From the NCBI GenBank assembly GCA_033439795.1, contig JAUTDP010000001.1:930001-994000 (forward strand): a stretch of DNA of 64,000 nt, given 5' to 3'. A program made the position numbers and the translations under genes. Every line of letters starts with the position of its first letter. Position 1 is the first letter of the stretch. This stretch comes from Sordaria brevicollis. Taxonomy: Eukaryota > Ascomycota > Sordariomycetes > Sordariales > Sordariaceae. Of this stretch, positions 12,961 to 43,660 are shown one piece after another. The notes below the pieces were generated by a model that saw only the letters and a program-made list of their open reading frames with translations, was not told the DNA's origin and ran no database searches.

Positions 12961-13299
12961 AGAAAGGTTATTAATATTATAATACGGTCGTATTTACAAA
13001 ATTTCAAAAAATTAAGACGAAAAGCGATACTATAATAACCTTTAGGCATAGCCATCCCGTTATATTAACATAAAACTTTTTTTACGTTTAAATACATATT
13101 ACTATATTTAAACGTCGTATAAAAAAAACAATTATACTATTAAAACCGTCTCGTCGAGACTATTCTAACCATATATTTCATATCACTAGAATATTTTTTC
13201 GTAAATATATTATTATCGGGTAACCATTTAATTATATATATACTTTAGTGGGCTATGTAAATATAAATCGATTTAATCCACCCAGTGAACTCAGACCTC

Positions 13300-23250: not shown

Positions 23251-23589
23251 GGAAATAAGGTACTAAATATATAAAACGAAGGATACCCGGTAAATAGATA
23301 CCCCCTAAATCGTTTATTAAGAAATTATAAGAATATCCCCCCCCCTACCTCTTCCTATTACCTTCTTTCTTTCTTTAAATATTACTTTTAAATAATTCTT
23401 TTCTTTTAAATAATTCTTTTCTCCTAAATAATAATTCTTATAAGTTTAAACCCAATTTATAAAATTACCCTTAGAGACGTTACTACAAATATATTTACCT
23501 TAAATTTACCTTTGAATATTATTTATTAAAGTATATACTAATTTAATATAAACGCTATTAATTATAGTAGTAATATTTATTATATATTA

Positions 23590-24549
23590 GTTTTGAACCG
23601 CGTTAAATACGCGCCCTTTAATAAATACTATATTAAGGATATAAATATTAATACGATACCGTTATAGAAAGTGGATTTTATTATAATCGGAATAATAATA
23701 GTAGAATAAGTCGAATATATTATTACCCGCTAATTAAATAATTTCTTGTAAGAAATATTCGTCTATTAATATATTTTACGTTATACGTACCTTATAAAGT
23801 ATAATATACGTTATATCGGCGAATTATATAAAGAAATGCTATTTACGCTAGAATAATACGTAGTTTAAATATTATAGTACGAAATATAATATTATTAGAC
23901 GGGTAAGCGGAAGTATATCGATTTTATTTAATAGGTAACTTATTTCGTTCGAATTTATAAGAGATGTAAAAGCGCTAAATATATTATTAATTTAAACCTG
24001 GATACGCGTATAACCGCTAACGTTTTAACCGCCGCCTTCTAATACGTTATATATTATAAAAAGTTTACGCCTCTTTAATAGCCCGGTAATTGAATAATAA
24101 TTCCTAAAGAATAGGCCTACTATATCCCTTACTACCGAGCCTTCTACCCCTACGTCGTCCTTAGAAATTTAATTAATTACAATTTTTATATTATTAATAT
24201 ATTAGTAAATTAATTTAATAATATCTCCGGTAAAGATTATTCGTAAATATAAGAAGAACCGTATAACGGAGAACCGGGACGCATTATAAAGTTTAAAGCT
24301 TCTAATTCCGGACGCGGTCCTATTTTTTTTACTAAATTAACTACCGAATTTATTACTAATAAAGCCCTTTATAATATTTAATAAGCTTTAATATTCGTTT
24401 ACTAACGTTGTATTACCCGAATTATAATCCGTAAAAGTACGGAGGATATATATTATAACGAATATAAAATAGTTAAATAGGTAATAAATAGGGAATAAGC
24501 GGCGAATAAGGCGGTAGAAAAAATTTATTTTTATAATAGATTTATATAA
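23590..24549 (+). pseudogene. Extra decayed reading frame between integrase and the 3' LTR
   Basis: A single plus-strand frame of about 320 codons runs from 23,590 to the TGA at about 24,547. Apart from one TGA its internal stops are TAA or TAG, as for RIP-damaged CAA/CAG codons. It lies after the integrase remnant and in the same orientation. Readable pieces include RCKSAKYIINLNLDTRITAN near 23,960 and SNSGRGPIFFTKLTTEFI near 24,305. I do not recognise the family. Standard Ty3/gypsy elements have only gag-pol, so this may be a third gene, an env-like or captured gene, or a gag-like domain in an unusual place. Confidence 0.55.
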
Positions 24550-24953: not shown

Positions 24954-27290
24954 TTACGCGGGTGCACGGACCGCATGGGGAGGAGTGTGTTGTTAGGATG
25001 AAGTTGAGGCGCTAACATGTGGCACCGGGGAAATAGGTGGGATGAGATAGCGTGGTAGCGGGGCTGCAACGGCGATGCACGTCGGCACCAACCGAGGTTC
25101 GAGGGCGAGCGCTCAACTGCACTGCATGCCAAATTGCATTTTCGAAAAGGCAATGACATGATTTTCGAGGCTCAATCTCAACGTCGTTCGAACTCTTCAA
25201 CATATTTAACTTCCAACTTCGAAGTTGGCAACAATCCTTTATTACAAATTCGCACCCCAAGATGTTCGCCAACTTCAACCATTTCGACATGCTTTCCCAC
25301 CTCCAATAACCCAGCCACCGAGAGAGCAGCCCAACCATGATGTCAAACGACGCTGAAAGTCCAGCACTGAACGACCGCAATACACACCGACACCGAGTCG
25401 CGATGCCATCTTGATGTTTCCAACAGCACAGCCTTCAAATTGCTGTCTCTTCCCTCGTGGCAAGGCATATTTCTTCCCAAGCTCATTATGGCTACCACAG
25501 CCATACTTCACAAGTTCACATCCATCACACACATTGAAGCTCACAACGAGAGACATCTTCGTCTCTCACACAATATATCCAGTGGCATCCAGCTTCAAGT
25601 TGACGACCCTTTCTGTTTCTTTCACGGCGTTCACTGTCTTTGCTTTGACTACCCAGTCTACCCTATTGCCTTGTTCATCTATCCTTCCTTGACTGTATAT
25701 TCCACAATGTCGCAGCCTTGTCCAACTCACAGTTGGGTAGTACTGGTGTCTTCTTTCTCCAACCAACATGATTCGCATTCCACAACACCGCATCGACTCC
25801 CTGTCCACAACGCACCTGATCTCATTTTATTTCGCGTTGTCGCAGCCTTGCCCAACCAGCCTGAATATTCCACAAGATCCCACCTCTCCCTTGACTGAAG
25901 AATCTAGCTTCTATTTCACCATCTTTTCCCACAGCCCTGTCCAGCCTGAAAGCTCTCACTCAACGGCTATGCCTTCCAGCTTAGTGAAAGAGTGCCAACC
26001 GCCAGCGAAAGCGTGGAGTCCTGCTTGAGCCGTGGTAAAACATGGTTAGCATTCAACCTTTCGAAGAAATCCCTCTAAAAGAGCTGGTGACAGGTGGTTT
26101 CCTCTCAGATGTCCTTTTTCAGAATTGTGCCCTTCATCGACCTTAGTCTCAGAGTTGTTTTGTAGTATCGCAAATGTTTATCATCATAAAGCAAGTCGGC
26201 ATCCTCTAGGGGTTTCCCTGTATACGCACCATGTCAAAGGGTTGTTTGTTTCTTCGTTATTATCTCAGCGCCCTCAAGCCCCGTCAAAGTCCTGTCTCAA
26301 CATGAGTCCATGCTGTTAGCATCGTGCTTTCCAAGGAAACGGTTATGTACAATGGCATGCAGAGTTGTGTTGCTTTCAGACCGTTCTTTTTCCCTCATTG
26401 CCTGTCATCATCAACCTTTCGGTTTACAGGTGGATAGCCGTATGAAATGTCATGTCATCATGAAGCCAGTCTCTACCCCAGTGGGAAAGTCTTTGCTTAC
26501 CGAGTCTTGGAGCTAGGTGAAGACGGTGGCATCCAGAGCCAAAGCTGTGATTCAGAGGCCTATTGAGAATGATCTCAGTTAGCGATGTCTATCAGGAGAG
26601 AGAAAGTGCTACTACACCAAGTGGGATGATGTCTCTATCAGATATAACCGAAATCTATCTCCATCTTCCCGAAGAAAGTCAGAAGTAGTCATATACAAGA
26701 AGGATGCTCATCATGAGACACGCCAGGCTGCTTGGGCGCCGGAAACTCTTGAACGTAAAGAGAAAGTCAACTTACTGATACCGACACCCGTCACTCGAAC
26801 GCCGACACTACCTCTAGGACAACACTGATGCACTGCTTGTTTTGCTCTTCTCTTTGTTGTTGATGTGATTGTATTGACTGCTTCTGCTCTTCGCCCGCAC
26901 TCACTCCCAGTCTATCTATTCCGCCCTGGTTCTTGTTCCTCCTCTTCCGCCCCTAACACATCGCCATCCCTTCCTCTTCCACCTTGCCATTCCTCCTCCT
27001 CGCAGCCCGAGGCTTCTTGTTCTCGTTCGGGGTTGTCGAGTTTTTCGGAGTTCGTCACCGTCTGGCTTGGGGCCACGTCTGTTGCTGTGTTGCAATCAAG
27101 TGTTAGCATCTGCTCTTTCAACTGCATGCGTTGTTCATTCTTTGCAGTACAAGCACTTGCTCCGTATCAGATTCTTTTCAGTATGATGCGCATCAACCCC
27201 CTACCCGTCTTGTGAATTTGTGAGCGGGTGGTTGTTTGACAGCAAATTCGTATCAAAGGTTGTCATCATGGAAGCAAGTGCTGTTTGCCT
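24954..27290. other. Normal-composition DNA, no supported gene
   Basis: The sequence is unaffected by RIP from 24,950 on. Short frames occur on both strands. One minus frame at 26,912-27,127 is acidic and coding-like (Glu-rich, CEEEEWQGGRGRDGDV) and follows an AG acceptor-like site, so it might be a downstream exon of the minus-strand array, but nothing confirms it. No family is recognised. Confidence 0.4.
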
Positions 27291-27299
27291 CCTCAGAAG

Positions 27300-28050
27300 C
27301 CAGGAGAGGAATGTTGAAAGGGGAAGGGGAAGGGGGAATGTGAGAACTGGCGTTCCCTCCGACGAAGAGACTTGATCGCCGAGGTAAATTACAGATCTCC
27401 GTGTCTTTGGAGAGATTCGACACATCTTTCTTCGGCAGTTGGGTTCATTGTTGCTTTCGTCTAGGGTCCTATAGCCCTCCCGATCGTGAACTCGAGATCG
27501 CGAGGACTGGTCCTGCCGGATGGATTGTAACTCTCTCTAGCCAAGAAGAGTTGTCAAGTGATGATGGGAAAATGTAAGAACTGGTTTCAACACTGACGAA
27601 GGAAACTTGATCGCCAATGGCTATCGACAGATCTCTGTATTGCTGAAATCAACGACGCATTGCTGCACCGCTGAAGCCAGCGACACATTGTTCTTCGGCA
27701 GGCTGGTATACGAAACGCCCTCCCGATCGTGGACTCGAGATCGCAAGGACTTGGGATGCCGGATGAATGTGTAAGAGGTGCAGTGCACACCCGTGACTCT
27801 CTCCTGCCAGGAGGAGAGTCATCAAGTGGTGATAAAGAGGGGATGTGAGAACTGTTATTACACCGACGAAGTAACTTGATCGCCGATGGAGGCTATGTGA
27901 CTCAGATCTCCGCATAGCCGAAAACAACGACACATTGCTGCACCGCTGGAATCAACTACGCATCATTCTTCGGCCGGGTATGCATCCCTCCCGGTCGTAG
28001 ACTCAAGACCGCGAGGGATTGGAGTGCCGGATGGTGTGTAGAAGGGATTT
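27300..28050. repeat. Three diverged tandem repeats of about 240-265 bp
   Basis: The word ACTTGATCGCC recurs near 27,371, 27,607 and 27,872. Other shared blocks are CCTCCCGATCGTG-ACTCGAGATCGC (near 27,476 and 27,720, a variant near 27,989), TGCCGGATG, CAGATCTC and ACACATTG. Spacing is about 237 and 265 bp. These resemble, in period, the introns-plus-exon modules of the adjacent array and may be its most diverged members, but I could not place splice sites in them. Confidence 0.6.
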
Positions 28051-28605
28051 TGTGTGGTGTAGGGAAAGGTTCAGGGAAGAGGTAAGTGTAAACTGGTGGC
28101 AAAGGGAATACTTACTTACTTTTGACAGATTCCAATGTCCGTTGACATCCAGCTTAGCCCGCATATTCTCCAACTCTAGCGCCTTGACGCCCGCCCGCCA
28201 GCTTTACTTGTTGCTGGTACATGTTCAAGCCGGGATAGAACGGCCTGTGCCAGTCTCGTCGCCGTCCTCGGTGATCTCGGAGCCAGTACCGGAATCGTGA
28301 ACATTGGCATTAGTTCGGTCCCTCTGTGGACACCCAGAACAAAAGGCTGTAGTACTTGCAGTGGTTGGCGAAGATCGCCTTGGTGGGCAACCATCCATCC
28401 TAGCTCGCCACCTCCACCCAGCAAGGGAGAAAACATAGGAACTGGGCGAAGGGGGAACAAAGTCATAGCGAGCTGGCGGAGGCGGACCGCTCGTCGGCTT
28501 CTTGGTACGCGTCTACCTTGGAAGGCGTTAACCTGCAAAGGAAACCAACGTTCCAGTTCGAGAACCCGGATTTTTTATTTTAATTTTTTTTTTTGAGCCG
28601 CCCTT

Positions 28606-28839
28606 CTACCCCGGCAATGGGAAGGGGTCATTTACTTGTTGCTGGTACATGTTCATGCCAGGATAGAAGGGCGGCGGCTCTGAGCCGGGTTCGTGGTTGT
28701 TTTTCTCGACCAGGTGCTGAATGCTGAATATCATGGCATACTCATGGCGTTGAGGCTCTACCCGAACAGTTTCGGACCAGGAACTTGTTCTGGAAGGTGT
28801 TGTCGTCCAGGAACTTTGCTGCCAACCCTCAAGCAACAT
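28606..28839 (-). CDS. Short unidentified coding-like frame with a duplicated motif
   Basis: A 77-codon minus frame ends at a TAG at 28,606-28,608. Its C-terminal part (HLVEKNNHEPGSEPPPFYPG followed by MNMYQQQV) looks like real protein. The same motif, RPFYPGLNMYQQQV, recurs in a minus frame at about 28,197-28,240, so the two are paralogous segments 0.4 kb apart. Upstream on minus (28,850-28,960) another plausible peptide contains KARDQRARPPIPKVKF with a GCTGAC branch-like site after it. A multi-exon gene at 28.1-29.2 kb is possible, but I cannot join the parts with confidence. No family is recognised. Confidence 0.3.
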   Translation of the reverse strand: MLLEGWQQSSWTTTPSRTSSWSETVRVEPQRHEYAMIFSIQHLVEKNNHEPGSEPPPFYPGMNMYQQQVNDPFPLPG

Positions 28840-29796
28840 GCGAGATGGTCAGCATGCGCCAAATTTGACCTTCGGAATTGGTGGCCTGGCCCGTTGGTCT
28901 CTGGCCTTCATCATGTTGACGCGCTTGGCGAGGCTAGAATGGTTGTGCTGGGAAGTCGAGTGGCAGTGGTGGTGGTGGTGGTCTGGTGGTAAAGATGGGA
29001 GTTGTTGAGGAGCGAACTCCCCTCTCCCTCCCATCCGCCATCTAGGCAACCAGGCAGTGCCAAAAGAGCTCGATGCGGAAACACATCGTGGCGGAGAGAA
29101 GGACGACCTGGGTGCTTGCTGGTGCTCTTGGGTGTGGCCCAACCCAGCCTGACCTGCGGTCGCTACCCCGCGAGGGGGGTCTTGAGCTCGCAGGCCAGGC
29201 AAGCCGAGAGGTGGCGGAAGAAGGACAACCTGGGTGCTCGGGGCGGCTCAGCCCGGCCCAGCCTGCGATCGCTGCCCGCTTACTCTGCCCCAGTTGATGG
29301 GGAGAGTGAAGAAATGGGGGCCGTAAGCTCGCAGACTGAGCGACCGCACCACAGGTTGAATTGTGATGCGGTGGTGTGGTGTTGAGGTTTGAAGGACTTC
29401 TTTTTTTTCTTTTTTCTTTTTTCCTGTGTTTTTTTTTTGTTTTATGGGAGCCAGTCGGAGGGAAGTCGAGACCGCTGGAATCGTCGAGGCAGAGTCCATG
29501 TACGAGGCCGCTGCGCGCGCGAAGGAAACTGAAGTTGATGAGAGATGGTCAGCATCAAGGTCTTGAACATGCAGTGACGGTTGAAACAAAGGTAAGTGCC
29601 CCATAGTTCAGAGTTAAGCAATTAAGTCATCAACGAGATGCCTCCCTCACCACAGAAGTGAGAGGTAAGAGGACTCTATGACATGTCTATTTCTCATCAT
29701 GGATGGAAGCTAACGTGGAAGAGGCAGTAGAAGGATCGCTTACCATGTAGCTGCGTCCATCGCGAGGGAAGTTCTTTGCGCCGCTGCGGCGCTGTA

Positions 29797-29908
29797 GTAG
29801 GGAAGTGGTGATGAACCTGAGTAGCGAAGTGGTGGTGAACCTGAGTAGGGAAGTGGTGATGAACCTGAGTAGGGAAGTGGTGATGAACCTGAGTAGGGAA
29901 GTAAGTGG
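29797..29908 (-). repeat. 24-bp minisatellite, about 4.5 units
   Basis: The plus-strand unit GTAGGGAAGTGGTGATGAAC plus CTGA repeats with single-base variants. On minus each unit contains TACTCAG followed by GTTCATCACC, so every unit supplies a candidate 3' splice acceptor. The last unit joins an exon-like segment that ends at a GTAAGC donor (29,743). Confidence 0.75.
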
Positions 29909-30952
29909 TGATGGCCTGCTCTCAAGGATGGTTATTAGCATCGATCTTTTTCCAAGGCGAAGAGACAGAGAAAAGCAAGGCAAGTGCTCCAGTGGGAAGT
30001 CAGATTTAAGCAATTTTGATGGTCAACATTGAGTTACCTCCTACTTGTTACAGAGGTGGGAGGACTCTATGACATGTCTTTTTGTCATCATGAAAGGGAG
30101 CGGGAGCTGACGGGTGGAAAGGAAAAGGAAGAAGCGCTTACTTTGGAGGTAGTGTTTTACTCCAGGAGGTTGCGGCTTCGTGGCTTGGAACGATTGGGAG
30201 CTGTCAAGCTGGAAGCAAAAGGTTGTTAGCGACTGTCTCAAGCGTGAAGTGTCCGGTTGATACAAGCGCGGTAAGTGTCCCCATCCATCAGGCCTCTTTG
30301 TCTTCAATGAGCCCGCCACCATTGATGTATATTTCAGGTGCGTTCTCTTGGAAAGTGCAGGTTGTCATCATGGGAGGGAGCGTTGCGAACGCAAAAAAGG
30401 AACGCTCATGACGTACCTTTTGTTGCCTTTGATGGCATCGCTTTTGAGCGCGATAGCTTCCTCCTGCTAGTTGCGCCCGGCGGCCCGACCGATCGAGGGG
30501 TTGAAGTGGAAGGCTTGTCGGGAATGATCTTGACGTTCTGAACGTGACCAGCAGTCTCGAAGAAAGGCTTTGGAGTCGTGATGGAGAGAGTGTCGACAAG
30601 TGTCGAGTGTTGGCGCGCGTCAAGTCAAAAGAGTCGATGATGTTCGCTGAGACTCTCAAAGCGCTGATGGGATGTTGCGCTCCATGGGAGGGTGCCCAGG
30701 ACGTACCCGGACAGCCCTCCCATAGAACATACCTGGAAGAAAAAAACCAACACCAAGTGGTTAGCGTTGTGTCCAAATCAGTTGATCGAAACGCAAGTGG
30801 GTGAAGGTGGAGGACTGTGGTTCAGAATAACCGTGGTAAGAAAGTGACCCTCATGGAAAATCAGGCACTTTGGTGTTTTGGTTCATCATAACCAAGTGGA
30901 AGCCCGAATGCGGCCGTGGGTGAGAGGAGGAAGTGAGAGATGGATGACTTAC

Positions 30953-33900
30953 CAAACTTGAAGCTGGAAACTTGCCCTTCCCAATCGAATGTTGGCTCGG
31001 GGAGAAAGTCGCGAGTGTCTTCTCTGCTGAAGTCCTCGCAGTTAGCAAGTGCCAAAAGACAGCTGATGCAAAAGTGTGAGCAGATGAAGATGCTGGGCCT
31101 CAGAATGGCACCATACGACGGACGTATGGGAAACTTTTTTGTCATCTTGCGAACAGACGAACGCGTTGGGTTCTAAGTGGATTTGGCAAGTTTTGTTTCA
31201 TCATTGGCCAGCTTGAAGTTGATGGTGAAGGTGAGGGAGGAGGGGTAGCTTACGCGACGAGTGTTGTTGGTCGAGGAAGAAGATGAGTGCCCCGTGGGCA
31301 AATATCTGAAAAGAAAACGTCGCTGTTAGCAAGTGCCAAAAACAGCTGATGGGAAAGTGAGCAGATGAAATTATTGGGCCTCAGAATGGCACCATACGAA
31401 CGTATGGGAAACTTTTTTGTCATCTTGCGAACAGGACGAGTGTGTTTGGTTATAAGTGGATTTGGCAAGTTTTGTTTCATCATTGGCCAGCTTGAAGTTG
31501 ATGGTGAAGGTGAGGGAGGAGGAGTGGCTGGGCGAATGGCTTACCATGGCGCGACCGGCGAGTTCTTGTTGGAGGAGGAGGAGATAAGTGCCCCGCGGGC
31601 GAATATCTGAGGGAAAACGTCGCTGTTAGCAAGTGCAGAAGGCAGCTGAAGGGAAAGTGAAGGCAACGAGGCAGAGTTGCTTGGTGTCAGAATGGCACGA
31701 TATACGGGACTTTTGTGTCTTCATTTGAGCGGACAGAAGCGTATGGTTCTAAGTGGATTTGGCAGTCGTTTTCATCATAGGCAAGTGGGATGTGGTGGAG
31801 GTGAGGGAGAAAAGTACGAAACTTACCAAGGCGCGCGCGACGGGCAAGCTGTTCATGGTCGAGGAAGAGGAGGGGCAAGTGCCTAGAGAATGAGCAAGGT
31901 CAGCTTCCTGTCAGATCGGCGCGCGCGATCGAAGAGTGGAAAAGAAGATGCTTGGTATCAGCTGGCACGATATACGGGACTTTTTTATCATCTTGCGAAC
32001 AGACGAAGGTGTTGGGTTCTAAGTGGATTTGGCAGTCTGTTTCATCATTGGCAAGGGTTAGGTATGGTGAAGGTGAGGGAGGAGGGGTAACTTACGCGAC
32101 GAGTGTTGCCGAGAGAAGAAGCGCGAATGCCTGAACGATGGAAGGAAAGTCAGCTTTCTGTCAGAATGGAAAACGAGCACGAACTCAAGTGTAAATGAAG
32201 GCTGGCTTGGTTCAGATCCAGTTCTACCCGGAGGATTGTCTGTCATCGAACAAGGTCGAAATTCTAAGAAGGAGTTCAAGAATGTTTTTGGTTTGGTCAT
32301 CATTACCAAGCTTGATGGATGTTGGAGGATGGGAAAAGAAGTGAGGGAGAGGTGGATGACTTACCAAGTGGTTGTTGTTGATGGGAGGAAGACGAGCGCG
32401 GTTGCTGGCGAGAGAAGGATGGCGGGGCAAGCGCCCGGTCGCTGAGAGAGAAGAAGAAGGTGGTCAGTTTTCTATCACAGGCGCGAGCGCGATCAAGAAG
32501 TGAAAGTGAAGGCGGCTTGGTTCAGATCCAGTTCTACCCGGAGGATTGTCTGTCATCGAACGGGTCGAAGTTGTTCTGAGAATGAGTTCAAGAATGCTTT
32601 GTTTTGGTCATCATACCAAGTGGGCAGTGTGTGAAGGCAGGGCAAGAGGGAAACTTACGCGACGAGTATTGTTGAGAGGAAGAAGAGGCGCGGTTGCTGG
32701 CGAGAGGAAGAATGGAGGGGCAAGTGCCTGGAGGAGAAAAAGCACCAGCGCGCGGTCAGTTTTTGATCAGAAACCAGGAACGCGAGCGCAAGTGTGATGA
32801 TGAGGGCTGCTTGGTTCAGGTCCAGTTTTACCCGGAGGATTGTCTGTCATCGAACAGTCGAAGTGTTGGAGCTCAGGTTGAAAACAAGAATGATATAAGG
32901 TAGTTTGGTCATCATTACCAAGCTTGATGGAGGAAGAAGAAGGAAGGGAAGTGATGGAGGGAGGGTTGTTGACTTACCAGGTTGAGGTTATTGTTGATGG
33001 AAGGGCGAAGGTTGAGCTTGCTGTTGTTGATGGGGAGAGGAAGAAGAAGAAGAGGCGGGGCAAGTGTCTGGCAGAATAAATAGACGGGAGGTCAGTCTGT
33101 CAAAAGAGGAGGGGTATGACGTACCAGGGCAAGGCGCGTTTCGTCTGGAGGGGCGCGACTTTTGTTTGTTGCCTTGCGAAAGGGAAAAGATAAGAAGAGG
33201 GCCACGCGGGTTGGCAGCCTGGCAAGTGCCTGAAAAATACAAGAGGCGGGAAGGCACCCCGGTCAGTTTCCCTTATCAGAACGAAAAATACGAGCACAAG
33301 TGTGAAAGTTTAAGAGTGCCCCGTTGGCAACTTGCTGGATCAGATTAATTGCGATTTTTTGGGCATCATGGAGTTCGAACTTTGAAGTGTCCGTTCTCTC
33401 ACAAGCTTAGTTTATAGAGATCATCATGGAAGCAAGAAGCCCCAGTGGCGCTGGTGAGCGAGTGAAGGGAAAGTTGTTTACTTACAAATGTGTTGTTGGT
33501 GTTACCGAGAGGAAGGATGGGCAAGTGCCTAGCGTAAAGAAGCAAAGCGGGGCAGTCAGTTCTCCGTCAGAAATCAGAATCGAGAAATTCAAAGACTCAA
33601 GTGTGAGCGAGATTGTTGCTTGATCAGACCTTCGGGAAAATACATATCATCTTCATGGAGGACGAAGTCTCGCCCTCTCAAATAATATGAGGATCATCAT
33701 GGAAGCAGTGAGGTAAAAGGTTGGAGTGAAGGAGGAGTTGTTGACTCACTAGAGTATATAGTCGGCTCGCTGGTCTTGATCGCTGGAAGAATGCGGGGGC
33801 GAGTTGCCTACGTGAGAAACAGATCGTCAGCTTCCTGTCAGAACCCAAGGGCTCTGCAAAACAAGTGTGAAAGGTGGTTGCTAGGTCAGATCAGGGGGAA

Positions 33901-35116
33901 TTTGCGTCATGAAGGACGAAGTGTCGCCCTCTCAAATAATATGAAGATCATCATGGAAAGCAGTGAGGTAAAGCGTTGGAGTGAAGGACAAGTTGTTGAC
34001 TTACAATTATAGTGTGGCGAGCTGGCCGCGCGCGGTCTTGATCGCGGGAAGAAGAGGGGCAAGTGCCTGAAAAGAAGAGGGCAGTCAGTTTCGTGTCACA
34101 ACCACTGGAGGGGCTCGTGAAGGTTTGAAGAGGACTGCTTGTTTAGATCAGGGGGGATTTGCGTCATCGAGTTGTACTCTCAGTGCAGCTAATATAATCA
34201 TCATGGAAAGCAAGAAGTGGTGCTGTTATAGGAGCGGGGAGAAGATTCTTGACTTACCGCGTCGTTTTTTTATTGTTGCCGGAAGAAGCAAGGCTAGAGG
34301 AGGGGCAAGTGCCTGGGAATAGAAGGCAGTCAGCTTTCTGTCAGAACCGCTGGAAGGGCTCGGACACAAGTGTGAAAGTTGCTGCTTCGATCAGATTCGC
34401 GTGATTATCTCTCATGGAGTCGAAGTTTTTGCTCTCGGAGGGAGTGATTTGTTTGATATTGGAAGTCATCATGGAAGCAACGCGGATGGAAGTAGGATGG
34501 GAGGGGAGAGGCTTACCATGACGCGTGTTTGTTGTTGGCAGGAAAAGAATTGAAGCTGGAGGAGGGGCGAGTGCCTGAAAAAAGAGCAGTCAGTTTCCAG
34601 TCAGATTCTATGGACTCGGCTGGGGCACAAGTGTAAAAGTTGCTGCTTGATCAGAATTCTCATTCATCATAGAGTCGCAAGTTTTGCGCTCTCAAGAATA
34701 GATCCGTAACATAGAGGTAAGAATCATCATGGAAGCTGGAAGGGGTGCTGCCTTGTTGTGGAAGTGAAGGGGGAAGATTGTTGACTTACTAAAGCGCGTG
34801 TTTGTGGTCGGCGGGAGAGGAGGAAGCTGGAGGAGGGGCGAGTACCTGGAGAGAAGGGCTGTCAGTATCCCCTCAGAATCTATACTGGTAGGCCCGGCTG
34901 GGGAGCAAGTGTGAAAGTCGCTGCTTGATCAGATTGGCGTGATTATCATCATAAAGTCGCAAGTTCTGCGCTCTCACGAATAGATCCATAATCTAAGAAT
35001 CATCATGGAAGCAACGAGGCTGGGAGTTGGGAATAGGGGAGGGAGGATATGCTCACCAGAACGCGTGTTTGTTTTGTTGTTGTTGGCGCGAGGGAAGCTG
35101 AGGGAGGGGCAAGTGC
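30953..35116 (-). other. Mini-exon array, distal block: at least 16 exon-like modules
   Basis: Minus-strand segments bounded by an AG acceptor and a GTAAGT/GTGAGT/GTAAGC/GTACGT donor: 35116-35057, 34845-34790, 34574-34517, 34312-34258, 34066-34005, 33807-33750, 33528-33486, 33229-33125, 33067-32978, 32727-32659, 32441-32365, 32130-32096, 31882-31827, 31606-31545, 31305-31254, 31026-30953. Lengths are 35-105 nt. Most start GCACTTGCCCC or a close variant and end in or near CACGCG/CGTCGC. Upstream of most acceptors lies CTGACAGAAA-CTGACTGCC (a doubled branch-site word), and intron interiors share TGATCAGCAGC and CTTCCATGATGA-type words. Lengths are not multiples of three and some exons carry stops, so coding is uncertain. 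Further modules continue at 30.1-30.8 and 28.5 kb. The pattern indicates repeated tandem duplication of an exon-intron unit. Confidence 0.7.
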
Positions 35117-37945
35117 CTCGAAGGAAACAACACGTTGGGAGGTGGCCAGTGCCGTATCAGAAGGGGAAAAACAAAACACAAGTGTGAAACTGAAAGATCG
35201 AGAAGGGTTGTTTGATCTATTCTGCGTATTCTGTATCATGAAGGAAGTTCCCGAGCTCGCAGGAGAAAACAAAGATGAAAAGATTGGAAGGTCATGATGG
35301 AAGCAAGGCACTGAGGATGTTGGAGTGGGAGAAGAAGTGGCAGAAGTTGTTGACCTATTGAGGTCATGGCAGATAACCTATTGAGGTCCGGGCAGATGAC
35401 CTATAGTGACCGGGGGGGCCGGAGGAAGAGGTGGGGCAAACGGGCAAGTGCCTGGGCAAATAGGAAGGCAGTCAGTTTGCTATCAGACCCGACGGACCGG
35501 GTCGCGCAAGTGTGAGCATCAGTTTCCTGCCTGCTTAGATCTGCTCCCGTTTTTTCAGCATGGAGTCGATGTTTCGAGCTCTCAGATGGAGTGATTTGAG
35601 GAGAGATATTATCATGGAAGAAATGTAGGAGGATGTTGGAGTGTCAATGAAGTGGAAGAAGTGGTTGACCTACTAACCTCAAGGTAAAGGTCTCGGGCAA
35701 GTCATCCCTATACTGACTTGATCCCGGGGGAAAGAGGGGCAAATGCCTAAAAACGGGCAGTCAGTTTCTGTCAGAACCCAATGACTTGACCGCACGGCAT
35801 ACCGGCCGTATAGTCTACATAAGTGTGAAAGTTGCTGCTTGGCCATATCTGTGTCCTATTTGCATTATGAAGGACCGGGGGTCGTATCCTCATATCCGCG
35901 AGCGTGGTATTTGGGAATCATCTTGGAAGCAAAGAGGCTCGAAGTGGGATATACGAGTCTCTGACTTCCTTTTTAAGTGTCTGAGCGATGTCAGATTGGA
36001 AGAAAGATGATACTGCAGAGCGTTCTTGACAGTTAGTCGAGTGTGCAAGGCCTGAAAGGATCTGGCAAGTTCTGAAGAATGTTGAGGCCTCACGGAGTTT
36101 ATTGCACCGCGTGTTTTGTGTTGTCGAGCTGTGGCAGTTCTTGACCATGAAGGCTTTGTGCTGTTGGGCTCAAGTGATACTGGGCATCATTGGCAGCATA
36201 AGTGGAACAAGGGCAAAGAAGAGAGCAGTGGATGGATTGCCAAGTGGTTGAATGGTGGCCAAGTGGAACATGCAGTCTGTTCTTGACGGGACCGTTTGCG
36301 AACTTCCCGAACCAAGACAGAATCTGGCAAATGCTGGAGAAATGTTGATGACCTTAGTCCGTTTACGATTGTTTCTTTGAGCCGTGACCATTGTTGGCTA
36401 TAACCCTTTGCACCCTCGAATAGAAGAGATATCTTTCACATCACTAGGTACCTAGAGGTAGCCAAGTGGGAACCTCAAAACGTTGAAGTGTTGAACGAAT
36501 CCGTCTCTTAGCATGGAACTTTTCGATCTGCACATAAAGCTTACTGATACATATATTAACGGATTCTCCGTCTCTCCATTCATCCTCCTTCTTCTTCACC
36601 TTCAACCAACAAGCCCGCCACCACTCTATTGGCTCGCATCATCTTCGTTCGCTTCACCAAATAATACCTCTATCGACTTTGTTTGCATCTTTGGCTACCT
36701 ATCTGCAAAGACCACACGGATGAAGGCATGAGAGAAGCGGATGGCTTACCAAGTAGTTGAGTTTACGCTGCTGCTGATTGTCCCTGGAAACATAAAGACG
36801 GGAGGTCTCTCCAAGACTGCGGTATGTGCTGAACAGTCAGTTGTCCTCCCAAGACATAAGGGACGTGAACCTAGCAAGTGCTGGAAGATTTGTGGTGGAT
36901 TAAGTGCGTTTTGCTATCTTTCCCATCCGTTTCAAGAGCCGTGACCATGGTGGGCTGTGAAGGCATTGCACTCTCAGACGCAGAAAGACTTTTTGACATC
37001 ACTGGACAAGTGGGATGTGGTAGAAGGAAAGGAAGTATCTATATTTTCCAAGTGGTTGATTCATGACCAAATAAAAGAGGTGGGGAGACACTCGGCCTCT
37101 TTTGCATCGTTCTGAACTACTCCATGTGCCCAATTTGAAGACAAAAGAGAATTTGACAAGTGCCGGAATAATGATGAGGCCCCGGTGCATGCTCCCTACT
37201 TCTAGGGTTGGTTCCATTGAGCCTTGCTGCCATGGCCATTATTGATTCTGAACTCTTTGAACTTACAAAAAGAACCTCAAAGAACAGTTCGACATCATTG
37301 CCCAACTGGAACACAAAAGATGGTGAAACGTATTGAACGATTTCATGTCTTAGAGCATTTGGATGATCTGCACATCTTGCTCCTGAATCCTGATACATCT
37401 GTTCAGGGTTTCCCCCTATCTCCCTCCCTGCTCTCTCCCTACTACCTGCTCTCTCCCTACCTGCTCTCCCCCCTCTGCTCTCCCCCTCTCTCACTTCCTC
37501 CATGCCTCTCTTCTTCCTTTCTCAATCGACAGGTTTACAGCCCTCCTTTTCGTCATCGCCTTATCTACATCGTGGTGTCCCACTCACTTCGTTATGTCAC
37601 TAGAGGTACCTCTACGACAGGCAAGTGTCTGACTTGCCAAGTGACTGAGGAATGGTTGGATGGACGAGACATGAGCCTCTAGCCTGTCCTGGGGGTTAGC
37701 TGAGTTAACAATGATTGAAAAGATCTGACAAGTGTTGAACGAAGCTGCTGCCCTCGGTACGTTTTCTTTGTTTTATTCCATCAAGTCATAAACATTTGGC
37801 CGTGCGATGTGCATGCTTTAACTCTGAAAAGGAAGAACAATTTCACTTCGTTGACCAAGTGGGAAGAGTGTGAAAGGTGTTGTGCGACTCCGTTCTTAGC
37901 ATTACAGGCTCTATCGACTTGCCCACGTCTCATTCTAGAGGTACA

Positions 37946-38386
37946 TATATCAAGGGAAATTCTAGACACACACACGGTCAATTCTACACGCACACACGGC
38001 TCAAAACCTAATACCGCCACTCCTCCTCTAAAACCAATTATTAATTTCTATTAAAAGAAGAATTAAATAGGAATTAACTATCCATCACTTCCCAGTCCTC
38101 TTTCCCTTTTTAAAAGGTTTTCGTTAGCCTTTCTTATAGTAAGTTTCATTCGTAATGTCCAAATTTGCAACCTACGCTTCTTCATTCCTACATCCCTGAA
38201 CAACACACTCCAGACATAAAAGAATGGGAAAAAATAGATGAAGGAGGGGTATTCTATTAAATACTCTACAAGGAAGTAGTTTTTTCATTTAAGTTAATTC
38301 TTTTCGGTGGAATTTTAAGCTTCGAAAATCCGGCATGTGTGCGTGTAGAATTGACCGTGTGTGTGTCTAGAATTTCCCTATATCAA
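37946..38386. mobile_element. 425-bp hAT-like MITE with perfect 8-bp target duplication
   Basis: The element (37,954-38,378) has perfect 43-bp terminal inverted repeats beginning GGGAAATTCTAGACACACAC. It is flanked by identical octamers TATATCAA (37,946-37,953 and 38,379-38,386). An 8-bp duplication is typical of hAT transposition. The interior is AT-rich and non-coding, so mobility would need a transposase elsewhere. A sibling array module at about 36,549-36,574 (ACATATATTAACGGATTCTC) is the equivalent site without the element, which independently supports insertion. The perfect termini indicate a recent event; at 425 bp it may be near the lower size limit for RIP. Confidence 0.85.
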
Positions 38387-38708
38387 CGGATTCTCCCTCT
38401 CCTTCCCTCCTCTTCTTCCATCTACGACAAACAAGTTTACTAGCACCCTTTCCATCATCATCCACACCCCATTGTCTTTGCCCACTGCGATCGAAAGAAT
38501 GAAGCGTCAACCTAGAGGTAGCTGGTCAAGTGGCTGACTCGCCACAAAGTGGGAGGTCGGGAAGTTTCTGCAAGACCTTGAGCAGTTAGTTGACTGACCG
38601 AGACATAAAAAGATCTAACAAGTGCTGAAAGAAGGTTGAGGCCTCAGTGCGTTTGCTGGTTTTGGCTTCATCGCGCCTTGACAAGTCCCTTTTCACATAA
38701 GGATACTG

Positions 38709-38736
38709 TTTTTTTTTTTTTTTTTTTTTTTTTTTT
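38709..38736. repeat. 28-nt poly(T) run
   Basis: An uninterrupted T run in the middle block of the mini-exon array; a shorter T run occurs in the neighbouring module near 39,048. On minus these are A runs within an intron-like segment. Confidence 0.95.
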
Positions 38737-39563
38737 GTGGGACAATCAAGGCTTTGAGTGCTCAAAAGAAGTTGAAGAAGGAGGTTTTGTCATCATGACC
38801 AAGTGAGATATCCGAGAGAGAAAGGAAGAAATGGGTAACGTACCAAGTGGTTGAGCTCATGATATGAACAAGTGGGAGAACAGAGGGCGGGCAACTCCTG
38901 CGGCTGTGTTCGAGCGGTTAGCAAACTGCCCAAAACAGGAGAGATTCTGACAAGTGTCGAAAGTGATGGTGGCGGCATCAGTGCGTTTGCTGGTTTTGAT
39001 TTCATTGAACCTTGACATGCAAGTCCCCTTTTCTGTAAGGATATTGTTTTTTTTTTTGTGTTTTTGTGGGATTGTCAAGGCTTTGGACTCTCAAACTTAC
39101 GGTCTGATCATCATTTGCCAAGGGGAGTGAGAGAAGGAAAGTGGGAATTGCTTGTCTTACCGAAGTCTTAGATCGAATTTGCAACGAGCTGCGAAAGGCC
39201 AAAGCCCCACCCTCTAGAACGCACAAATATTGTTCTTGTTAGTAAAGGCGTCTCCTGGATGAGGTGTTGACGGGGAAAGTGCGAAAGGTTCTTTGCTTCA
39301 TCTCAGACATATTTTGAGATCATCAACTGGGAGTATCACCTCCCTCAGACGAGAAACTGCGATTAATGATGTTCATCATGGAAGCATAACCGACAGGTGA
39401 CAGATAAGAGACACAATACTGACTTCTCAACCTCTCCGGCCAAGAGCTCGAAAGCCCTGGAGACGTTCTGGCCGTAGCGAGCTGAAGCCTCGGTCCAGGC
39501 ACACCTGTACTTCTTGCGAAACGGACTGGATGTTGAGAGAAGGCATATTGACTTTGTTGGGTT

Positions 39564-42500
39564 CTAATGCTGACTTGACCAAAGGCTTGTAGGGATTGAT
39601 CGATCGGCACGCGCGAAGAACAACGAAACCGGCCTGCAAAAAAATAATGTTAGCCCAATCCGTCAAACAAGGGTCCCAATCTCGAATGATGGATGTCGAC
39701 TGTTGAAACAACAAGTTCCTCAGGCTCGCTGTGTAAGTCCAACAGTCCTCCTGAACCAAGAGGCCCCTCAGCCCCTGGAACAGGCACGGACGTCCGACCA
39801 ACGTTCTGGTCTCCAAGCTGTGGCCTGCAAGGAGAGAAGAATGAAGGCCGTCTGTGCTAAGTGAGTAGATGATCTACTCACAATTTGATTGACGGAAGTT
39901 TTGTAGGCATCGATTCGATCGCAGCGAAGAGAAACGGAACTTGACGGCCCTGGGAAAAAAAACAATGTTAGCCCAATCCGTCAAACAAGATCCCGCGAAA
40001 GTCTCGAATGATGGATGTCGACTGCTATGTGGAGCATCGAGTTCCTCAGGCTCGAAGTTGGCATCTCCGACAGTCCTCCTAAACCAAGGGGCCCCAGACC
40101 CAAGGAATAGGCACAAGACGCCAAACCAACGCCTCCAAGCTGTGGCCTGCAAGGAGGGGAGATGGCCGGCTGGGCTAAGTGAGTAGATTTTCTACTCACC
40201 ATTTCATTGAAGTTCAAGTTGTTCGCTGTTGGTTGCACGTCGACTGACAACGCTGAAGTCGCTGAGGAAGATCCCGCCAAAGACGAAAAAACCGCGGAGA
40301 GGTGCCCAGGACATGAAAAGTCCCGGACAGCCCCCCCGCAGCCCAGTCGAAGAGGAACTGCCCACACGCCGCCGATGTGTGAAGTCGAAGTCGAAGAAGA
40401 CGATGATAATCGAAGAAGACACCTACCAACCCCACCGTTAGCCAGGCCCTCCTCCTTGGGATTCCCCCAGACTCGGACACGGAGGGTCCTAGACACTCCA
40501 CCATTTCATTGTCATAGCCCAGCCACCTGGCAATGCACGCCGTGGTCCTGAAAGCTGATCCCACATCCCAAGGCTGAAAAAAACCTCGAAAGGAAAAAAA
40601 GAAGCTAAGTAGGTGCACCTACCTGAAGAAGAAGACGAAGTCCGAGATCGCTGTTGAAGATGGTCGAAGACCGCTGCTGAGTTCGACGCTGGAGTTGAAG
40701 AAAACCTGCCATCCCCACCGTTAGCCAGGCCCTCCTCCTTGGGATCCCCCAGACTCGGACACGGAGGGTCTTATAAACACACATTGTCATAGCCCAGCCA
40801 CCTGGCATTGCACGCCGTGGTCCTGAAAGCTGAAACCCACATCCCAAGGCTGAAAAAAAACCTCGAAAGGAAAAAAGAAGCTAAGCAGGTGCACCTACCA
40901 GATGATGAAGGACATGAAGAAGTCCCAAGATGACCGGGAATGTCGAAGGTCGAAGACCGGCCGCTGACGAAGAAGAAGACCTATAAAGCGCAAGTCCGCA
41001 AAAAAGTTAGCCAGGCCCATCCATCCTCGGGATACCCCCAGACTCGGACACGGAGGGTCTTGACATCTCTGTGTCTCAATCATAATCATTGTCATATTGA
41101 CAGCCCAACCACCTGGTAATGCACTACCGTGGTCCTGAAGACTGTGCTATTCCCACCATCCACGAGGCAAGCTAAGTAGGTGCACCTACCAGAAGAAGCA
41201 AAAGGCGTCGATGCCAGAGTGTCGAAGGCCGCAGAGCGGTGTTGATGAAGAAGACCTGGAGTGGAAGAAAGTCCGTAGGAAGGGTTAGCCATCCCGAGCG
41301 CACAAGAATGTTGTGAAGACATTGAGGGTCTCTGGTCCGGCTACCTAACCAGAGGTGCACCGAGCCACGAGTCTCTATGCAAGGAACGACCAAGCAGGTA
41401 ACACCTACCAGATGATGAAGACGACGATGTCGAAGACCGAAGACCGCGCGACCGTGAAGATTGACCTGAGAAGATGACCACAAAGTGGGTTAGCCAAACC
41501 GAACACACGAAGAAAACAAAGCTTACAGCTCAGTGCCATCTCACCTCGCCCATTGAGGCGTCGCAACTAGAGGCGTGACTGGCAAAGTCAACTTTAAGGA
41601 GCAGATGGGTTTTCATCATCGCCACACGGGAGCCAAGTCCCTTCGCAGAACAGAATACAGCCAAGTAGGAGTCGGACCTACCAAAAGATGAAGAAGAAGC
41701 CGAGTCGAAGACGGCAAAGACCGATTGAAGACCGCACGCGCGACGAGGAAAACCTGAAAGAAGACCGCAAAGAAAGTTAGCCAAAGCAAACCGGAAACAC
41801 GTAAACAAGACCCAGTCCGCAGAAAGACGAAAGAAGCAATGAACAGAAGCCCGTGACATCAGAACCATCTCCACCTCTGCCCATGAAGGCGTCGCTTTTT
41901 GAGGCGTGGCCCGCCTGGCTTCCGCAAATGCATTGGGCTACTGCGGTGGCACCAGACAAGCCAACATTAAGGAGCCGATGGGTTGTCATCACCTGCCACA
42001 TGAGGTGGGCTCTGCCGTGGGAAGGAATGAAGCTAAGTAGGGGTTGGACCTACCAAATGTGTGTGTGTCGCGCCTGTGTGAGTCGCGCCTGTGTTTGAAG
42101 TCGAGGATGGTGTCGAGAATGCCAGGCGCGATGGCAAGGTGATGAAGATCGAAAACCTGTGAAGACTGGAATCACTTAGCCCAACCGAACAAAATCATTG
42201 TCATTGTGAGAAAAGGGACCGGTCAGAAGAAGAAATCCAAACACCGCTGGCTCAGAAGTTGGCACACTCAGTTAAGGTCATCGACACCAAGGTCAAAGCC
42301 GAGGCAACTATGAAAATTTTGTATTGGCATTCGAGGTTGTTGTCATCATCGCCAGCGATGAATGGGGTTGGACCAAGTGAGGACGATGTGCAATGTGACT
42401 CACCATGAGGAAGACAAGATGGATCTTGATGTCGCGACGACAATCTCGAAGTGTCGATGAGTTGAAGATGGGAAAAACCTGTGAGAGACTGGAATCACTT

Positions 42501-42965
42501 AGCCCAACGAAAATTTTCATTGTCATTGTTCAGGAAAGGAAAAAAGGGACCGGTCAACCCAAACCCCGCTGGCTCAGAGGGTGGCAGCCATGAAACTACT
42601 CATCGTCACCAAGGCCAAAGCCGAGGCGAATCCCGCAATCGGCAAAGGGATTTTTTCATCATCGCCAGAAAGGAATGGGAGTTGGGCTGAGTGAGGACGC
42701 TGTGCAATGTGACTCACCTTGAAGAAGAAGAAGAAGATGTCGAAGATGTTGATGTCGAAGTGAAAGATGAAGACCGAAAACCTGCAAAGACTGGAATCAC
42801 TTAGCCCAACTGAAAAGGTCATTGTCATGGTAGGAATCGCTGGCTCAGTGGCAAAGGCACAATCTTCACTTTGGCAGATCAGAAGGCACAGGCTGCTATC
42901 ATCATTGCCAGCGATGAAGTTGGGTGTTGGGCTAAGTGAGGACGATGTGCAATGTGACTCACCAT
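39564..42965 (-). CDS. Candidate 321-codon protein assembled from mini-exons
   Basis: Splicing the proximal modules in order gives a frame that starts at the first ATG of the predicted transcript (the last three bases of exon 3) and stays open to TAG at 39,564-39,566. Segments, all minus: 42965-42963, 42781-42718, 42478-42404, 42156-42054, 41753-41682, 41465-41409, 41255-41190, 40980-40899, 40705-40623, 40422-40200, 39949-39882, 39633-39564 (966 nt). Of the three frames of the 223-nt exon only one is open to its end, and the spliced frame is that one, which gives modest support. The peptide is rich in Ser, Leu, Phe, Arg and His with low-complexity Ser runs. I recognise no domain. Each intron has a standard donor, a GCTAAC/CTGAC-type branch site (GCTAAG before exons 4-6) and an AG acceptor. 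It could equally be a spliced non-coding RNA. Confidence 0.35.
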
Positions 42966-43640
42966 GATAAAGAAGAAGAAGAAGAAGCGGAAGGTGCGAC
43001 CGTGAGATGATGATCTGGGAAGAAGGAAAGAACACGTCAGTAAACTGCATGACAAATGAATGTCCGGTTAGGTGAAAGTGATCTTTGGCTTCCCTGGTCA
43101 GAGGCATTTGTTTTCATCGCCATGCCGGCACAACGTGCAATCCACCACAAGGCAGGCTCGAAGGTTTGTATGATCATCATGGGAAAAGTCTGCTCGGTGA
43201 TAGTATCTGTTCTTACCTGAAGATGAAAGTGAAGCGCAAGTGATGAAGAAGCTGATGTTGATGATGATGAATCTGATGGAAGCCAAAGACAGGTCAGCAA
43301 ATGCCAAAGATGAATGTCAGATGTGAAGAAATGTTTTGATGAGTGTCCCTCAGAAGTGGCAGTTTCCTCCATACAAGGCTAGGACTGGCTGACACCAGCA
43401 GACGCCAGCGTTACCCTGCGCCGAACACATACAGGAATACTGAAACGCCTGGCCACAGTTCATCATTGGGAAAGGAAGGAGTGTGAGATGGTGGAAGGAG
43501 ATGGAGATACATACCAGATGATGATGATGATGAAGAAGGAGAAGAAGAAGATGATGATGATGATGGAGGAGGAGAAGAGGAAGAAGAAGAGTGCGACGAG
43601 AGATGAAGAAAGGGAGAAAATTTGAGAGGAGAAGAAAGGT
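39564..43640 (-). other. Mini-exon array, proximal block: 14 exon-like modules
   Basis: Exon-like segments on minus: about 43,630-43515, 43272-43217, 43014-42963, 42781-42718, 42478-42404, 42156-42054, 41753-41682, 41465-41409, 41255-41190, 40980-40899, 40705-40623, 40422-40200, 39949-39882, and 39633 onwards. Lengths from exon 2 are 56, 52, 64, 75, 103, 72, 57, 66, 82, 83, 223 and 68 nt. Most begin GTTTTC or GTCTTC and are rich in CTTC, CATC and CGAC. Introns are 153-300 nt, long for Neurospora, and share whole blocks: GTGAGTCACATTGCACA at the donor, ATCGCTGGCGATGATGA inside, and GGGCTAAGTGATTCCAGTC or GGCTAACNNT before the acceptor. Splice signals are consistent only on minus. Exons 2-11 (710 nt) contain no TAA, TAG or TGA in any frame. 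Confidence 0.75.
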
Positions 43641-43650: not shown

Positions 43651-43660
43651 GGTTTAAATA
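43651..43660 (-). promoter_or_regulatory. TATA-like box of the mini-exon transcript
   Basis: On minus the sequence reads CTATTTAAACC, a good TATA-like element, followed 20-40 bases downstream by a pyrimidine-rich leader (CCTTCCTCACCTTTCTTCTC) that leads into exon 1, whose donor GTATGT is at 43,514. The same TATTTAAAC word lies on minus at 49,545-49,553, upstream of the pseudogene at 48.6-49.1 kb. Confidence 0.5.

Follow-up and report, generated by a model that had tools for sequence, protein, structure and literature searches.

The minus strand of the window, by which we mean the whole 64-kb stretch of Sordaria brevicollis DNA analysed here, very probably carries a non-coding host gene of the UHG/GAS5 type with about 32 intronic, tandem-duplicated box C/D snoRNAs between about 43.63 and 29.5 kb, and four more predicted snoRNAs continue down to 26.1 kb. 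The locus would give rise to one long non-coding minus-strand transcript of the RNA polymerase II type, starting near 43.63 kb and extending to at least 29.5 and perhaps 26.0 kb. Splicing would remove dozens of introns from it, each about 150-300 nt long, most of them enclosing one box C/D snoRNA. Debranching of the intron and exonuclease trimming up to the snoRNP would release the snoRNA, and the spliced mini-exons would be by-products. Units of an exon and a snoRNA-bearing intron were duplicated in tandem with boxes and splice signals kept, the guides having changed in some units and been held in others. A tandem, intron-borne guide-RNA layout is best known from mammals and is unexpected in a fungus whose defence damages longer repeats.

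Splice sites were modelled over 25.5-44.5 kb as chains of donor, branch site and acceptor, using weights set by hand after the general consensus. The minus strand scored 379.9 (54 introns) against 92.1 for the plus strand (29 introns), and 20 dinucleotide shuffles of the region gave 24.7 to 99.0. A stricter run over 25.8-43.7 kb, carried out without shuffles, yielded 284.4 for minus (46 introns) and 19.1 for plus (7 introns). The splice-site array on the minus strand is real, and these scores bear out the first-pass annotation in having placed canonical donors, branch sites and acceptors there. From the stricter run, 36 of the 46 introns were kept as a curated set, while ten whose sites were weak or whose length was unusual (I14, I17-I23, I42 and I43) were dropped. 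The donor of I15 was shifted by hand to 39160 because of the snoRNA inside this intron. Both runs disagree on the acceptors of I03-I05, and I03 passes the box test described below only with the acceptor from the 25.5-44.5 kb run. The many short exons that had been described are also found: 28 of the 31 internal exons flanked by kept introns measure 35-105 nt (median 62). The distance from donor to donor has a median of 276 bp and is at most 400 bp in 29 of 31 cases, the units mostly spanning 220-400 bp. Pairing of the two intron ends in a helix was rejected as a general rule (own pairs -17.6 vs. swapped ends -17.2 kcal/mol; p 0.24); in 11 introns, chiefly I03-I05 and I09-I12, pairing of the own ends came within the top eight of 36.

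Box C/D snoRNAs are bound by Snu13, Nop56/58 and fibrillarin and carry a guide of 10-21 nt adjoining the D or D' box; the predicted array RNAs would be expected to assemble into such particles. An exact C box (RTGATGA) 30-75 nt past the donor together with an exact D box (CTGA) lying 60-135 nt before the end of the intron, the windows set for the test, was detected in 30 of the 36 curated introns (200 shuffles: mean 0.06, maximum 1), and in 28 of the 46 introns of the stricter run as delivered. The observed C boxes lie 36-63 nt from the donor and the D box precedes the branch site, mostly by 50-60 nt, each of these introns placing one predicted snoRNA at set distances from its splice sites. 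By eye, the U24 gene of the same genome sits in an intron of like layout. Terminal stems of at least 4 bp are present in 26 of the 36 curated introns (200 shuffles: mean 0.005, maximum 1); the stem is shorter in four of the 30 C/D introns, one of which is without any stem. An intron-independent C/D scan of 26.5-44.7 kb gave 32 matches on minus, overlapping pairs included, and 4 on plus, with a mean of 0.7 in 20 mononucleotide shuffles. Over the whole 64 kb, 28 non-overlapping matches were found on minus and 2 on plus, 26 of the 28 being located at 26-44 kb; a few of these matches rest on another D box than the coordinates given below. When 4227 Rfam families were searched at a lax threshold, the four matches were all to C/D snoRNA families, all on minus and all in the array; all are below the gathering score and three have E above 0.7. 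No Rfam family reached its gathering score in the array, the best sub-threshold match being archaeal sR1 with 25.9 bits against a gathering score of 45. Minimum free energy folds of four array snoRNAs did not improve on those of shuffles (z -1.54 to 0.81), which is usual for C/D RNAs. The repeating intron blocks of the first-pass annotation are present and contain the predicted snoRNAs with their flanks, a content absent from that annotation.

All features in the following are on the minus strand. At the upstream end, a TATA-like box TATTTAAA at 43653..43660 may serve as promoter, followed by a putative, pyrimidine-rich first exon at 43515..43625, whose donor is at 43514 and whose start is assumed about 30 nt past the TATA-like box. 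Subarray A (42054..43514; introns I01-I05), delimited by the chain runs and the box test, contains five predicted C/D snoRNAs, all from the box test: 43350..43466 (C to D box), 43098..43180, 42845..42905 (9-bp stem; the sub-threshold sR1 match), 42574..42662 and 42252..42349 (9-bp stem; folded). A sixth with C box GTGATGA lies at 41859..41992 (box test) and a seventh at 41530..41619 (scan and box test). Subarray B/C (39634..41408; chain run and box test) comprises the mutually related, consecutive introns I08-I13; RTGATGA was found in none of the six and CTGA only in I12 and I13. Further candidates are located at 39303..39379 (weak intron borders; boxes and sequence model), in I15 at 38978..39114 (box test) and in I16 at 38644..38796 (box test and sequence model). 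Modules at 35057..38485 are decayed or unclear, with weak sites and, by eye, broken boxes near 35.3, 35.6 and 35.9 kb. A transposon-like insertion lies inside the array at 37.95-38.38 kb.

The main subarray (29529..35056; chain run and box test) covers introns I24-I41; 18 out of 18 carry an exact C box and an exact D box where the test expects them. Besides five members treated with their guides below, the box test placed C/D snoRNAs at 34391..34472, 34148..34204 (short, 3-bp stem), 33886..33954 (two candidate D boxes, weak stem), 33624..33700, 33340..33427, 32816..32915 (conserved D guide GGGTAAAACTGGAC), 32522..32614 and 32212..32303 (both with the conserved D guide GGGTAGAACTGGAT), 31958..32048, 31687..31778, 31381..31483, 31100..31204 and 30288..30371 (3-bp stem). 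The first-pass annotation had described an array from 28000 to 43640. The array is present there, and further predicted snoRNAs lie below 28 kb at 27.27, 26.71, 26.46 and 26.19 kb: 27167..27269 (unclear intron borders; scan), 26638..26714 in I44, 26376..26461 in I45 and 26119..26187 in I46 (the latter three by scan and box test). Weak or broken units and the insertion occupy 35.1-38.5 kb, and a search of 28.1-29.5 kb found no convincing module. Both interruptions count against the host-gene reading, as do I08-I13 without RTGATGA and the ten chain introns dropped as doubtful.

As in a UHG-type host, the exons show no coding capacity, with one open frame of 375 codons counting against this. That stop-free frame, found in the spliced 13-exon 5' stretch (1127 nt), would speak for a protein-coding micro-exon gene, which we nevertheless consider very improbable. 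All frames of the stretch are nearly free of stops (0, 2 and 1; a total of 3 vs. 8.2 in shuffles, P 0.018), and a stop-free frame turns up in 13% of dinucleotide shuffles. No branch-site word CTRAY occurs in 2313 nt of exon against 8.5 per kb of intron, a contrast that is biased because the introns were partly defined by CTRAY words; the absence of these words from exons by itself leads to fewer stops. Codon-position bias was not detected in the 13-exon stretch (chi2 9.2; null 95% 12.5), exon 1 lacks an ATG, and only 6 of the 31 internal exons have a length divisible by three. Micro-exon coding was rejected on the missing periodicity and these exon lengths. Neither the resemblance to micro-exon genes of parasites nor the many splice forms suggested earlier find support. 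Parasite micro-exon genes are coding and have symmetric exons (multiples of 3), and the array shares with them many short exons, here without a sign of coding.

Tandem descent can be read from self-BLAST, in which 31029-32771 matched 31313-33107 (67.6%), 33460-34855 matched 33724-35126 (66.2%) and 39575-41013 matched 39889-41291 (65.3%). These offset matches confirm the duplicated exon-intron units that had been proposed. Introns I24-I38 have a mean pairwise identity of 0.52, and 15 of 15 retain both an exact C box and an exact D box at the expected places. Among 14 aligned snoRNA copies, picked for possessing both boxes, mean column identity is 48%, and apart from a single other column only the 7 positions of C and the 4 of D never vary. 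When these copies were turned into a sequence model, it recovered two further array members (38.73 kb, E 1.9e-4; 39.34 kb, E 5.9e-4) and a partial one (34.19 kb, E 0.27), and gave no match with E of 1 or less in the rest of the window. Comparison of 11 pairs of neighbouring copies shows stronger conservation in the snoRNA interior than in the spacers (599/806 vs. 466/729; p 6.6e-6), while in six of these pairs the two are alike (0.67 vs. 0.66). Guides differ between units. At 32.9-31.0 kb, a stretch chosen after the pairs had been inspected, guides are kept at 0.91 and spacers at 0.61; outside it, guides drift like spacers (0.57 vs. 0.66).

A decaying relic, i.e. an old snoRNA array that is now mostly neutral, would be in line with the broken units at 35.3-36.0 kb, the transposon-like insertion at 37.95-38.38 kb, the missing C boxes of I08-I13 and the six pairs with equally kept interiors and spacers. 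We regard it as unlikely, since exact boxes persist in all of I24-I38 despite their low identity and the interiors are better kept when all 11 pairs are taken together. RIP detects repeats from a length of roughly 400 bp. In the diverged array copies, no RIP marks were found: Ti/Tv is 0.99 and 28 of 271 transitions are in RIP context, a context that takes in 22% of sites. The rDNA of the same genome is heavily RIP-mutated. The median unit of 276 bp, the high divergence and the lack of RIP marks suggest a way around RIP.

For guide targets, a consensus restored imperfectly from 11 RIP-mutated rDNA copies was used as rRNA reference, and the search was RIP-aware. Intact rRNA was sought elsewhere, giving one chimeric contig with 5.8S only and none in viral contigs; a U18 family search gave no match. 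For U24 as positive control, 26S positions 1433 and 1420 were predicted (published: 1430 and 1418). At the positions published for 18S and 26S of N. crassa, 63 in all, the array guides gave 6 matches (decoy mean 4.8, maximum 12) in a test that is not very sensitive, since it recovered U24 at one of two sites plus one chance match. Because these matches are not above decoys, most guides are without a target for now.

A housekeeping host of the UHG type, carrying ordinary rRNA 2'-O-methylation guides duplicated for dose or extra sites, is a plausible account that we place somewhat short of probable. It would be supported by the D' guides of I24 (34929..35006; box test and target search) and I25 (34651..34730; target search), which address the same 26S segment, the former by 13 bp including one G:U near 1890 and the latter, GTTACGGATCTATT, by 14 bp to AATAGATCCGTAAC; the Rfam LSU consensus has the same letters at the target, and this shared 26S match is the one persuasive case. 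The highest-scoring D match of the array, that of I24 (15.5), is presumably spurious when compared with fungal rRNA letters. Possible 18S matches of D guides are 13 bp near 145 for I38 (30822..30889; TTACCACGGTTAT) and 12 bp near 67 for I40 (30000..30091; no stem found), and the D guide of I41 (29608..29700) aligns to the same 18S nucleotide that neighbouring I40 addresses. However, I38, I40 and I41 (scores 12.0-12.8) do not stand out from control D scores reaching 12.5 and 13.8, and their target letters find no confirmation in the Rfam SSU consensus. D-adjacent matches scoring at least 10 were found for 13 of 32 entries (controls: 3 and 7 of 32) and at least 11 for 5 (3 and 3), whereas D' matches of at least 10 were fewer than in controls (11 vs. 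17 and 15), those of at least 11 numbering 10 (8 and 6); one of the 32 entries (39118) started 4 nt ahead of the C box. The longest array match in the first rRNA search was 14 (controls: 15 and 13). Further points against rRNA guides are the published-site result, the RIP-damaged reference and the absence of the predicted 26S and 18S sites from Table 1 of Liu et al., as we read it (PMC2780460).

Alternatively, most guides may act on non-rRNA RNAs or as decoys, as in SNORD115/116, which we consider possible, if only tentatively. The conserved guides at 32.9-31.0 kb would fit this, given published rRNA sites not above decoys. Genome-wide antisense searches with two conserved D guides returned the array itself and only control-level matches with 2-3 mismatches, i.e. 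no long partner; as pairing over about 10-12 bp suffices for a guide, such a search cannot settle mRNA targets. In the 18S, 26S and genome-wide antisense searches no target was found for such guides, and both the guide drift elsewhere and the post hoc choice of the stretch argue against orphan guides.

SNORD115/116, SNORD113/114 and rat Bsr share with the array a non-coding host made of tandem exon-intron units, a single C/D snoRNA in each intron, indications of copy birth and death, and many members without a clear rRNA target. Tandem repeats with paralogous C/D snoRNAs are common to both, but copies in SNORD115/116-type arrays are typically homogeneous with one common guide, whereas the introns here are at 0.52 identity (I24-I38) with differing guides, more diverged than in those arrays. 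SNORD115/116-type arrays lie at imprinted eutherian loci, which does not apply to a fungal array; the units here mostly span 220-400 bp, in a genome with RIP. According to a 2024 review, such tandem arrays are eutherian-specific and understudied genomes may hold others (PMC11028025). Among the papers listed in a search of titles and abstract openings, with most subscription journals outside it, no fungal tandem snoRNA array was found. With N. crassa clusters I-V and UHG/GAS5-like hosts, the array shares one C/D snoRNA per intron and little-coding hosts, and with the clusters also the kind of fungus and a similar donor spacing (36-63 nt from the C box here; 41-60 nt from the snoRNA end in N. 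crassa) (PMC2780460). The published fungal clusters covered here hold few, differing snoRNAs, e.g. seven in snR72-78 (PMC3596301), compared with about 32 largely related copies in tandem here. N. crassa snoRNAs are mostly singletons, for which Liu et al. asked the reason and pointed to RIP; so many related copies in a Neurospora-type genome run counter to this expectation (PMC2780460).

A more speculative idea, which we consider rather doubtful, is that a tandem factory of orphan C/D guides, in the style of mammals, arose independently in the fungus. Single units, mostly below the RIP limit of about 400 bp, would duplicate, diverge and escape RIP, and fixed boxes and splice signals would form a scaffold for guide exchange, giving an evolving guide library largely for RNAs beyond known rRNA sites. 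In a haploid fungus, where deletion is easy, the function of such arrays is directly testable. Elsewhere in the window, an ORF at 46.6 kb had no match in viral contigs, and the ino80 gene, located at 61-64 kb, shares 95% identity with Neurospora sp. IMI 360204.

Splice sites of the minus-strand array (about 43.6 kb down to about 26 kb) were modeled as a chain linking donor, branch site and acceptor. Between 25.5 and 44.5 kb, the minus strand scored 379.9 and the plus strand 92.1, and none of 20 dinucleotide shuffles exceeded 99.0; these scores bear out the array of short exons proposed in the first-pass annotation. A stricter chain gave 46 introns on the minus strand (I01–I46, numbered along this strand; score 284.4) versus 7 on the plus strand (19.1). 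For the curated set, 36 of the 46 were retained after removal of I14, I17–I23, I42 and I43; the acceptors of I03–I05 were taken from the first, looser chain run, and the donor of I15 was shifted to 39160 because a C/D snoRNA begins ahead of the chain's own donor. Internal exons flanked by retained neighbors (n = 31) had a median length of 62 nt (35–105 nt in 28 of 31), while the donor-to-donor distance had a median of 276 bp (≤400 bp in 29 of 31). The duplication of an exon-intron unit, also claimed before, was confirmed by self-comparison: runs of 1.5–1.9 kb matched the array's own sequence offset by about one unit with 65–68% identity. Judged by sequence, the units are related by tandem descent.

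Inspection of the repeated intron blocks by eye revealed, on the minus strand, RTGATGA near the start and CTGA ahead of the branch site, with complementary letters flanking both (CTGGC/GCCAG in the 42–43 kb copies, GCTT/AAGC in the 33–35 kb copies). This layout is the anatomy expected of a box C/D snoRNA, with RTGATGA as C box and CTGA as D box. A C/D scan blind to the introns yielded 32 matches on the minus strand (overlaps counted) and 4 on the plus strand versus a mean of 0.7 in 20 mononucleotide shuffles; counted without overlaps over the whole window, there were 28 minus-strand (26 within 26–44 kb) and 2 plus-strand matches. With the C box required 30–75 nt past the donor and the D box 60–135 nt from the intron end, exact copies of both were present in 30 of the 36 curated introns (mean of 200 shuffles 0.06), and 26 of 36 additionally had a terminal stem of at least 4 bp (shuffle mean 0.005, 200 shuffles). 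All 18 introns of the main subarray I24–I41 qualified. Among the uncurated introns of the stricter chain, 28 of 46 passed the C and D box test. Two further predicted C/D snoRNAs on the minus strand, at 39.38 kb and 27.27 kb, have unclear intron borders, giving a total of about 32 with the 30 in curated introns. No Rfam family reached its gathering score within the array; at E ≤1 there were four matches, every one a C/D snoRNA family on the minus strand, the best of these sub-gathering matches being archaeal sR1 (E 0.0042, copy at 42.9 kb).

Also, an ACACTT element about 20 nt past the D box is conserved between D box and branch site in I24–I38 (mean pairwise identity 0.88). Introns I08–I13 resemble each other and have no C boxes. 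In I03–I13 (39634–42962, minus strand), the donor can fold into a short hairpin with covarying arms (GTGAG/CTCAC, GTAGG/CCTAC); folds versus shuffles were −6.35 versus −4.38 for I06–I11, −13.65 versus −5.14 for I12–I13, and barely better than shuffles for I03–I05 (−4.53 versus −4.12).

Conservation was analyzed in an alignment of 14 snoRNAs with 48% mean column identity, in which the invariant columns were the seven of the C box, the four of the D box and one other, the copies having been selected for carrying both boxes. Exact boxes occurred in the set windows in 15 of 15 introns I24–I38. A sequence model built from the 14 copies detected two further array members (E <0.001) and a partial one in the array (E 0.27), and nothing in the window outside the array at E up to 1. 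In 11 neighbor pairs, the snoRNA interior was kept at 599 of 806 sites versus 466 of 729 in intron spacers (p 6.6e-6, with sites and pairs non-independent), and 14-nt blocks just outside the snoRNA, set by the same box anchors, were kept at 87/153 and 72/149 sites. This excess stems from five pairs at 32.9–31.0 kb (guides 63/69 versus spacers 193/315); the other six showed none (guides 43/75, interior 263/392, spacers 273/414), a split that was chosen after the pairs had been seen. Some guides are held and others are changing.

For the identification of guide targets, no intact rRNA gene was found in the assembly, and the nine 5.8S matches were all damaged by RIP, the fungal genome defence mutating repeats (39 of 1408 candidates scored). 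The rRNA reference was a consensus restored from 11 RIP-mutated copies, which is imperfect because RIP apparently struck non-CpA sites too. As positive control, the genome's own U24 gene was predicted to target 26S positions 1433 and 1420 versus 1430 and 1418 as published. The best array matches were the D′ guides of I25 (14 bp) and I24 (13 bp, one G:U), both to 26S AATAGATCCGTAAC, whose letters concur with the Rfam LSU consensus. The D guide of I38 matched 18S near 145, and those of I40 and I41 one common 18S nucleotide near 67; these matches rank as weaker than those of I24 and I25, since controls score equally high and the Rfam SSU consensus fails to confirm the letters. The function may be that of rRNA guides at unlisted sites or of orphan guides, because the 63 18S/26S sites published for Neurospora crassa (Liu et al. 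2009, Table 1) gave 6 array matches versus a decoy mean of 4.8, with the U24 control recovered at only one of two sites, and because, for two conserved guides, long antisense partners in the rest of the genome did not exceed control level.

The exons look non-coding. The spliced 5′ part showed no codon-position bias (chi2 9.2 versus a null 95% of 12.5), and only 6 of 31 exon lengths were divisible by three. One frame was open across 375 codons, and the frames held 0, 2 and 1 stops versus a mean total of 8.2 in dinucleotide shuffles (P 0.018), with a stop-free frame in 13% of shuffles. The branch-site word CTRAY was absent from 2313 nt of exon versus 8.5 per kb in introns, a contrast partly built in as such words helped define the introns; its absence removes stops too. 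A TATA-like box lies at 43660–43653 (minus strand); the putative first exon is rich in pyrimidines. Transcription would begin at about 43.63 kb, the transcript would be spliced and its introns debranched, and each intron would then be trimmed down to its C/D snoRNP as in UHG-type hosts; the spacing of the snoRNAs within the introns fits this proposed processing. By anatomy, a host with intronic snoRNAs, the array is like UHG/GAS5. It resembles SNORD115/116 and Bsr in architecture but differs in divergence, varied guides and organism, arrays of this type being treated as eutherian in a 2024 review (PMC11028025) and by Zhang et al. 2014 (PMC4063771). The locus was filed as a snoRNA host gene of new form and not as a SNORD115/116 family member.

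The assembly comprises 53.08 Mb in 27 contigs, with the window at C1:930001-994000; its ino80 gene (61–64 kb) shares 95% identity with the ino80 gene of Neurospora sp. IMI 360204. The start of C1 (about 1–107 kb, loci L009–L019) carries about eleven rDNA units at a spacing of about 9.6 kb; a GC mostly near 0.2 marks them as heavily RIP-mutated. In the window, RIP indices were strongly positive at 8–12 and 16–24 kb and negative across 26–44 kb. Neighboring array copies differed by 271 transitions versus 275 transversions, and 28 of the 271 transitions were in RIP context, while 22% of sites are. RIP is said by Liu et al. (PMC2780460) to require about 400 bp for linked repeats. Single units are mostly <400 bp, but multi-unit runs match over >1 kb at about 65–68%; therefore, unit length alone fails to explain the escape from RIP, and divergence must contribute besides length. 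The same source invokes RIP for N. crassa snoRNAs being mostly singletons, a pattern to which the array is an exception.

Further elements were observed in the window. An AT-rich block at 8000–24000 (GC mostly 0.24–0.33, positive RIP index) contains a GC-normal island at 14–16 kb, and a fragment at 53195–53509 (minus strand), outside rDNA, resembles eukaryotic 18S rRNA (model positions 1212–1485, 115.5 bits). A transposon-like element with terminal inverted repeats is inserted in the array at 37953–38378; its flanks repeat TATATCAA (by eye), and it has nine near-full-length relatives (70–79%) on seven contigs, besides many end fragments. A tandem repeat at 27299–28045 has three or four units, each about 245 bp long (64–67% identity), which look unlike snoRNA introns. 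Short stretches at 39420–39514 and 28426–28968 share 84–95% identity with places on contigs C23, C21 and C24 and are perhaps captured gene or repeat fragments within the host transcript.
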